Positions 5,493-7,753 of a stretch of DNA of 41,136 bases are shown here, in pieces; position 1 is the stretch's first letter; each line of letters begins with the position of its first letter. Origin of the DNA: Cochliopodium minus (Eukaryota > Discosea > Himatismenida > Cochliopodiidae); assembly GCA_024220525.1 (NCBI GenBank), contig JAMYWO010000319.1:1-41136 (forward strand), in the 5' to 3' direction. The notes beneath the pieces were generated by a model, which worked only from the letters and a program-made list of their open reading frames with translations, was not told the DNA's origin and made no database searches. Made by a program: the position numbers and the translations under genes.

Positions 5493-7753
5493 ATGAAATT
5501 GAATATCTACATAGAAGATGAAATGCCTAATCCTAAATTATCGAGAAAGAATATAATTTTATTAATTACTTTGATCGCTATATTGATTCTTACAATCATA
5601 ATTATCATTGTGATAGTTATCAATAAATATGGGGTATGAACATTATTGAAATAACTAGATCATAATTTCATTCTGCACAAATATATAGGGTAAATGAAAA
5701 TATAAATTTTTTTATTGGGTGAATTTGATACGAATAAATAACAGGACATGAAGTTGATCAAGTAATATCACTACCAAAAATCGGAATAATGAAACAGAAA
5801 ACATATAGTGGACTGATTAAAGTCAATAACGAGACAAATTCAAATTTATTCTATTTATTTTTTGAATCAAGAAACATATCTCCAAATACAAAAGTTATAT
5901 TATGGTATAATATCATTCAATATGTTCAATAATTAAAATAAATTTAATATATTTTTTTTAAAAGGCTAAATGGTGGACCAGGATATTCGTAAAAAGCATA
6001 AAAATAATATATTTGAAATAGATATTCATCCTTTTTTAGATCTATCATAGATGCATTCCAACAAAACGGACCATTTACAATTTTACTGGATAACACTTTT
6101 GAACCAAACAAATTTAGTTGGAATGAAAACTATCATTTATTATACATTGACAGTCCAGTAAAAAAAAATAATTAAAATAAATAATAAATAATAAAGAATA
6201 TTGACAAAAGGTTGGAGGTAATAATTACTATTTATTTATTCATCAATTAAATTATTTTTTTTAGCTGGATATTCTTACACTGATTCGAATGAAGGATATC
6301 TGAATACATCAAAGAATGTAGCGGAAAACATTTATTTAGCTTTGGAAGTTTTCTTTCAAAAACACAAAGAATATTCTTCTTTGGATTTTGTTGCTGCTGG
6401 TGTTAGTTATGGAGGAAAATACATGTAATAAGAATTTAATAATAATAATCTTTAATCATCTTTTTAGTCCTTATTTATGTGATCACATTCTAAGACAAGA
6501 GAAACCTGTTGTTAATTTAACAAAAGCAATAATTGCAAATGTAAAAAAAAAAATTTAAATGCATTACAGCTAGATGTAATTTAACAAATTAAACAGGGAT
6601 GTAAAAAATTTTTAAAATTTATTAAAAAAGATTAAAAATTTTTTTTAAATTTTCTTTAGGGACGAATCCTTTAAACCAAGTGGAATCTTATTTACCGTTT
6701 CTGAACCAAAATTATAGGTATTAATTAATTTAATAAAAGATTTTTTTTTCAATCTTTTTTTATTGAATTTTTACAAGGTTACATCCAAACGACAACCTTT
6801 CTCATATAGATTACCTCTTAAATAGTTGGAGAGAAAATATCAATGAAGAAAATTGTAATAAATTCTAAAATATAAATACTTTTAAATAACATATTTTTTT
6901 AATAAAGATACTCAAGCATTTTTCTTTGAAGATTCTTTAAATAAGGTGATCAAAAATTGAAGTACTTATTCAATTTTATTTACTTTTTTTTTTTAAATAG
7001 TATTTCACATCTTTGCCAAATATTAAAAGTATTTACAATATAATATATCATGATGAAAAGAATGGAGATTTAGAAAGTTATTTTAATGAAGATGGTGTTA
7101 AAAAAGCATTACACGTCCCAAAAGAAATCAATTTTTCGGAATTTAACCAGTCTTCTATGGATGCTTTGGATGATGACGAAGAAAGAGATGCGAGCTATTT
7201 ATTGCCATTCATTTTGGGAAAAATCCCAATTTTATTTGTAATAATTTTTTTTTTTGAATAAATCTGTTTATAAAATTACTTTAAAAAGTACAATGGAGAC
7301 AAAGATTTGATTTGCAACGTAAAATTTTTTTATTTATTAAATAATTTTTTTTTTTTAAAAAGATTTTTTATAGTATGTTGGTACAGTTTCTTTTTTAGAA
7401 AGATTAAATTGGACATTTTCAGACGAATTTTCGAAAACTTTGAACTTTACTTGGACTTACAAAGACTTTGACAGAACCAGGTTTGCTGGATTGTACAAGA
7501 AAAAACAGAATCTCATGTATGCCTCCGTTTTCGATTCTGGACATACTGCTGCGATTTGTAAACCAGCAGAAGTTTATCATTTAATTTCAAATTTCATTGA
7601 AGGTATTTTTAACTTTTATTATTTTTAAAGAATTTTTTTGAATATTTAAAACTTTTTCAAAAAGATAAATGGAATGATACGGATTCTTCTCAGTTTGAAA
7701 ACTATTTTTTAAATATAAATTCGAATAATGTCAAAAAAAGAATGTTCAGATAA
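5493..7753 (+). CDS. Serine carboxypeptidase (peptidase S10), N-terminally membrane anchored, with micro-exons
   Basis: Exons: 5493-5633, 5689, 5745-5904, 5965-5988, 6040-6157, 6211-6217, 6265-6424, 6468-6540, 6597-6600, 6660-6717, 6778-6854, 6908-6945, 7001-7237, 7289-7318, 7374-7602, 7665-7753. The product is 481 aa. Residues about 20-43 form one Ile/Leu-rich membrane segment after a short charged N-terminus, so it looks like a type II anchored enzyme rather than a cleaved secreted one. S10 landmarks are the oxyanion loop LNGGPGYS (102-109), IDSPVGAGYSYTD, the nucleophile Ser198 in GVSYGGKY, ANGWTNPL, the Asp-bearing YNGDKDLICN (367-376) and His433 in DSGHTAA. The triad therefore looks complete. 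The usual LNGGPGC cysteine is tyrosine here. It should remove C-terminal residues from peptides in the lysosomal/secretory lumen. Three exons are 1, 7 and 4 nt long; leaving out any of them breaks the frame. The 1-nt exon is the least certain. Confidence 0.88.

Follow-up and report, generated by a model that had tools for sequence, protein, structure and literature searches.

In the 41,136-nt stretch of Cochliopodium minus DNA analysed here (the window), the four nucleotides GGAT at positions 6597–6600 of the forward strand very probably form a genuine coding exon of 4 nt, used constitutively in a working (predicted) carboxypeptidase gene and joined to its neighbors by two successive intron-defined splicing events. 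The window has a G+C content of 28% (A+T, 72%) and belongs to an assembly of 44.65 Mb in 598 contigs. Its introns of spliceosomal type, its actins and its Ras-family genes indicate a eukaryotic source. The only match in a search for duplicates of the region was the region itself, so there is no close copy with which to compare it. The features of the gene, in window coordinates, are:

5493..7753, + strand: serine carboxypeptidase (peptidase S10) gene, predicted, with 16 coding exons (three of them micro-exons), 481 amino acids and an N-terminal hydrophobic segment
5493..5633, + strand: exon 1 of the gene model, encoding the hydrophobic N-terminal segment
5689..5689, + strand: probable 1-nt micro-exon G, between two 55-nt introns (frame scan, shuffles)
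6211..6217, + strand: 7-nt micro-exon GTTGGAG, encoding VG and the first base of A in YIDSPVGAGYSY (shuffles, guides)
6405..6407, + strand: Ser codon of GVSYGG, aligned with GESYAG of yeast carboxypeptidase Y (CPY)
6468..6540, + strand: exon before GGAT, with the C-terminal residues ...AIIAN
6541..6596, + strand: upstream intron of GGAT, 56 nt, GTAAAA...AAACAG
6597..6600, + strand: 4-nt micro-exon GGAT, the finding (anatomy, guided alignment, shuffles, frame)
6601..6659, + strand: downstream intron of GGAT, 59 nt, GTAAAA...CTTTAG
6660..6717, + strand: exon after GGAT, starting with the last two bases of the W codon, then TNPLNQ
7304..7306, + strand: Asp codon, the second D of GDKDLICN, aligned with GDKDFICN of CPY
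7542..7544, + strand: His codon of DSGHTA, aligned with GGHMVP of CPY

The predicted protein supports assignment of the gene to the serine carboxypeptidases of peptidase family S10, with a match to Pfam PF00450 (Peptidase_S10) over the whole domain (E = 2.2e-85, 288 bits, profile positions 7–419 of 420) and PDB matches to CPY and the lysosomal protective protein (PPCA), the triad residues Ser, Asp and His being present in their motifs. It has WLNGGPG, SPVGAGYSY, NGWTNP and the aligned Ser/Asp/His in common with these two enzymes and differs from them in carrying GVSYGG for GESYAG, GPGYSS for GPGCSS and the N-terminal hydrophobic segment. The Ser of GVSYGG is presumably the nucleophile, and the aligned Ser, Asp and His are taken to be the catalytic triad of the family. 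All junctions of the 16-exon model (5493–7753) are GT-AG, intron lengths range from 43 to 62 nt and zero internal stops occur across the 481 residues, provided that three micro-exons are included: 1 nt (5689), 7 nt (6211–6217) and 4 nt (6597–6600). The gene model of the first-pass annotation, made from the sequence, already contained GGAT and stands in that part; it was incomplete in lacking the 7-nt exon and the probable 1-nt exon.

GGAT has TTAAACAG on its left and GTAAAAAA on its right and separates introns of 56 and 59 nt, as the earlier reading had described; at 4 nt between AG and GT, it falls within the length range of micro-exons (≤15 nt). With GGAT included, the spliced translation reads ...AIIANGWTNPLNQ..., restoring the ANGWTNP form of a conserved S10 motif and bearing out the proposal that a family motif is split over the 4-nt exon. 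The early stop that had been claimed for skipping is likewise confirmed: without GGAT the frame shifts to ...IANGRIL*, with residue 230 the first altered, three residues altered in all and a stop at 233.

The need of frame and motif for GGAT exceeds chance in guided alignment, in shuffles and in a frame scan. A spliced-alignment program written for this analysis was run at three intron costs with CPY, a paralog from the same genome (L014) and a mouse PPCA fragment as guides. Both CPY and L014 chose GGAT and the 7-nt exon at all three costs, and models with GGAT scored 17–27 above the best one lacking it. With the PPCA fragment the 7-nt exon is again supported; at GGAT this guide gave gains of 4.4 and 0.4, with the exon absent at the highest cost, but its alignment runs no further than the motif and is therefore no real test of GGAT. 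Chance was assessed with 20,000 dinucleotide shuffles of each gap, counting as a candidate any AG-(1–15 nt)-GT with both introns of 38–80 nt. In the 119-nt gap at GGAT, a candidate of any kind arose in 30% of shuffles; an in-frame, stop-free one was present in 11%, and ANGxTNP was restored in 0.125%; under the same rules GGAT is the sole candidate in the real gap. The split motif, together with the choice made by the CPY and L014 guides, is thus good evidence of a real exon, as first proposed, and it is motif and frame that carry the case, since AG/GT candidates alone are common in this AT-rich sequence.

That same frequency of candidates could favor a coincidence, in which a single intron of ~119 nt is removed and either another junction is used or the gene is a decaying copy. 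The nearest relative lends this some color: the closest S10 paralog by score, L013 (C56:33500–38000), has in-frame stops in its best alignment and seems to be a decayed copy. However, a scan of single introns across the gap (donors 6500–6599, exon starts 6600–6699) found zero GT-AG or GC-AG introns that keep the frame, and the five AT-AC introns that do keep it all lose the motif wholly or in part. With the other 13 introns regular, the frame open over 481 residues and the aligned triad residues present, a coincidence is highly improbable.

Two more micro-exons in the same gene had been missed by the earlier reading, as had a similar split in one paralog and the wider habit among GTPase genes. 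The 7-nt exon GTTGGAG is better supported than GGAT, with its motif restored in 0 of 20,000 dinucleotide shuffles of its gap and the exon recovered with the CPY, PPCA and L014 guides at a score gain of 28–41. In the range scanned for this gap (donors 6120–6214, exon starts 6215–6299), two GT-AG and eight AT-AC single introns keep the frame; the GT-AG substitute preferred by the aligner drops the motif and scores 28–41 lower. A second candidate in the gap, of 14 nt (6197–6210), is out of frame. The G at 5689, which links the hydrophobic N-terminal segment with the enzyme domain, is a probable 1-nt exon. In its gap (donors 5600–5689, exon starts 5690–5789), the frame is kept by zero single GT-AG or GC-AG introns and by eight AT-AC combinations. 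The assignment is probable rather than firm because some in-frame exon of 1–15 nt occurs in 3.7% of 20,000 shuffles, and its support is weaker because it lies outside the conserved domain.

An error of sequencing or assembly could create a false need for a micro-exon, and for the 1-nt exon alone this is plausible, as exon 1 terminates in a run of G where one miscounted base would restore the frame as well. A one-base error cannot, however, supply the four bases of ANGWTNP or the seven of SPVGAG, both of which are present with AG and GT flanks, and as an account of GGAT such an error is scarcely credible.

If GGAT is real, it could still be included alternatively as an on/off switch, with skipping yielding a truncated, unstable message. 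Each of the three micro-exons has the property that such a switch would exploit, with skipping causing a frameshift to a stop (after 12 altered codons for the 7-nt exon and after 6 for the 1-nt exon), and animal studies report regulated neuronal micro-exons. Neuronal cassette micro-exons of the SRRM4 type, in contrast, are multiples of 3 and preserve the frame when skipped, whereas the exons here are of 4, 7 and 1 nt and each skip leads to a stop. Moreover, the credible tiny exons of this genome (see below) are mostly non-multiples of 3 in conserved motifs, which fits constitutive use, albeit that multiples of 3 are harder to detect here. A search for the SRRM_C domain (PF15230), carried by the regulators of SRRM4-type inclusion, gave zero matches in this genome and in the control genomes alike and so carries no weight either way. 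A regulated switch is an unlikely reading.

For a constitutive GGAT, the proposed route is intron definition, with each intron of ~55 nt identified as one unit by its own pair of sites, a GT donor and an AG acceptor. Because each intron would be recognised in this way, an exon between two of them would need no minimum length. The pair around GGAT would probably be removed sequentially, as a 4-nt exon is unlikely to seat the factors for both of its sites together. Inclusion in the RNA would restore the frame and ANGWTNP, and exclusion would bring a stop ahead of the catalytic Asp and His. A study of PRP-40 in animals describes very short exons as thought to escape exon definition, proposes intron definition for micro-exons and reports that short flanking introns relieve their need for help (PMC8378409); with introns near 55 nt, the carboxypeptidase gene may need nothing special for splicing. 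Minigenes of human MPC1 are reported to splice with exons of 4, 2 and 1 bp, and even with none, which the authors credit not to intron definition but to exon-definition signals in the flanking introns, an ‘exon island’ (PMC9929638). The MPC1 exon is, like GGAT, 4 nt long and a non-multiple of 3, and its inclusion is reported as constitutive, whereas that of GGAT is inferred; GGAT also differs in lying between introns of just 56 and 59 nt, in a genome where other genes carry tiny exons too.

Among the S10 paralogs, a split of the GGAT type has a similar counterpart in L013 alone. There the motif is spelled by AATGG, a 3-nt exon ATG and GACG, giving the same spliced bases, AATGGATGGACGAATCC, as the window gene, and the 3-nt exon was also chosen by the aligner, with the window's own protein as the guide. 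As both splice points are displaced relative to the window gene (by 2 and 1 nt), the split is similar and not identical. L009 is unsplit at the motif and L014 has an intron close by at a different place. In L010, L011 and L012 the alignment breaks off or grows weak near the motif or ahead of it, and in L015 it stops well short. These six paralogs were set aside as direct witnesses of the split, and L016 and L017 were left out for poor alignment. Tiny exons elsewhere in these paralogs, identified without a decoy control, have lengths of 8 nt (L011, in each of its two tandem copies), 11 nt (L010) and 5 nt (L012). Low-penalty models of the paralogs, which contained many spurious tiny exons, were excluded from the counts.

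Tiny exons are present in other gene families of the genome. Using five human proteins as queries, 72 small-GTPase loci were aligned, in a sample biased to intron-bearing genes: 52 loci were drawn from at least 164 matches, mostly where the match begins partway into the domain, suggestive of an upstream intron, and the other 20 were picked as relatives of a Rab family with a 4-nt exon (see below). The 70 loci modeled with introns contain 178 internal exons, with a median length of 54 nt, and 248 introns, with a median of 67 nt. Exons of 1–15 nt were called 21 times in 18 loci, and 20 of the 178 internal exons are credible at this length, in 17 of the 70 intron-bearing loci of this biased sample, half of them (10/20) of 1–5 nt. 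The first 52 loci alone account for 12 of 131 internal exons in 10 loci, fewer than random breakage would give (12 versus 29 expected), while exons of ≤4 nt are near expectation (6 versus 8.5), with four of these six from one family. In this first set, introns beside micro-exons are shorter than others (median, 62 versus 71 nt; n = 23 versus 159; Mann-Whitney p = 0.009) and have similar splice sites.

Decoys with shuffled introns, ten per locus, gave one call in 520 runs for the 52 loci without micro-exons and 43 calls in 180 runs for the 18 loci with calls. A decoy equalled or exceeded the real score in four runs, all at L119, and in 0 of 170 runs on the other 17 loci; the tiny exon of L119, for which 4 of 10 decoys scored at least as well, was dropped. 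Scaled to 70 loci, decoys give 4.4 calls versus 21 real ones, 2.0 versus 10 at ≤5 nt and 1.1 versus 3 at ≤2 nt, so the 1–2-nt class is the least well separated by numbers alone. A 0-nt exon in L073, an artefact produced by the intron limit, was gone in a later alignment.

The credible tiny exons of the GTPases are mostly non-multiples of 3 and lie in conserved motifs, with exons of 1, 2, 2, 5 and 5 nt in P-loop, WDT or DTAG motifs. In a Rab7 relative (L116), a 1-nt exon at position 504 is the middle base of a P-loop glycine, whose codon is thereby divided among three exons; in the same gene, an exon of 5 nt gives I and most of W in QIWDTAG. A 2-nt exon TG in L073 forms, with the next base, the Trp of WDTAGQ, and a 2-nt exon GG in L081 completes a P-loop Gly. 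Five Rab paralogs (L091, L092, L095, L101 and L102), three of them on contig C375, have one common 4-nt exon (GCGG, GCGG, TGTG, GCGG and TCTG, respectively), which covers the codon for residue 3 and the first base of that for residue 4 in DTAGQE, DTCGQE or DSSGQE. The proteins of the first four are 44–62% identical, and the similarity of their introns beside the exon is mostly at shuffle level (0.70–0.87 versus 0.75 ± 0.06), the highest values, 0.87 and 0.85, being up to two standard deviations above shuffles; the introns of L092 and L101 have a visible stretch in common.

A survey of 24 actin loci for calls of ≤15 nt retained L040 (14 nt, gain 36.9) and a position common to L030 (15 nt, gain 7.6) and L049 (15 nt, gain 20.6). 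Calls in L035 (12 and 2 nt; gains 5.4 and 6.9) had too small a gain, and the call in L038 (9 nt, gain 26.6) reads a stop.

Micro-exons of 1 and 4 nt are already known elsewhere, and the unusual part here is their abundance. In plants, exons of 1–15 nt are reported in 0.6–2.6% of expressed genes (PMC8831610), compared with 17 of 70 intron-bearing GTPase loci here, a different set of genes in a biased sample called from sequence alone; as modeled, the frequency is far above the plant level. The plant examples, which include 1-nt exons in APC11 and VPS55, resemble the present ones as coding exons that annotation often misses; they are conserved, and about half are non-multiples of 3 (PMC8831610, PMC4674806). 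An RNA-supported 1-nt exon of Fusarium CYP621A, described for one gene family, was spotted like GGAT through a broken family motif and the frame, GGAT being known from its DNA only (PMC12940212). Searches of the literature on micro-exons with intron definition in amoebae, and in protists, found no matching report among the entries listed, as judged by titles and the starts of abstracts.

It is somewhat favored that constitutive exons of 1–15 nt occur in a large share of the intron-bearing genes of this genome, perhaps at ten times the plant frequency, with practically no lower limit to exon length. Tiny exons probably arise where introns come to sit a few bases apart, and short intron-defined introns combined with repeated intron insertion would leave scraps that selection keeps, the Rab 4-nt exon and the glycine codon spread over three exons being possible examples.

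Micro-exons of 1, 4 and 7 nt are easily overlooked in annotation, and because the smallest plant micro-exons are reported to be often missed or misannotated in reference genomes (PMC8831610), an annotation would present genes like this carboxypeptidase as broken or mispredict them. Should tiny exons be as frequent as the sampled GTPases suggest, the genome would offer a natural system for how the spliceosome handles exons too short for two sets of factors, and would also suit questions of a fixed order of intron removal and of tolerance to intron gain near existing introns, for which the five-member Rab family is a ready comparative test.

The genome has at least 164 Ras-family and at least 83 actin-family matches, with exons counted separately, which suggests that both families are expanded. 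One Ras-like match (G000, C1:633782–634150, − strand) lies within an open frame of 14,711 amino acids, which would be a giant gene.
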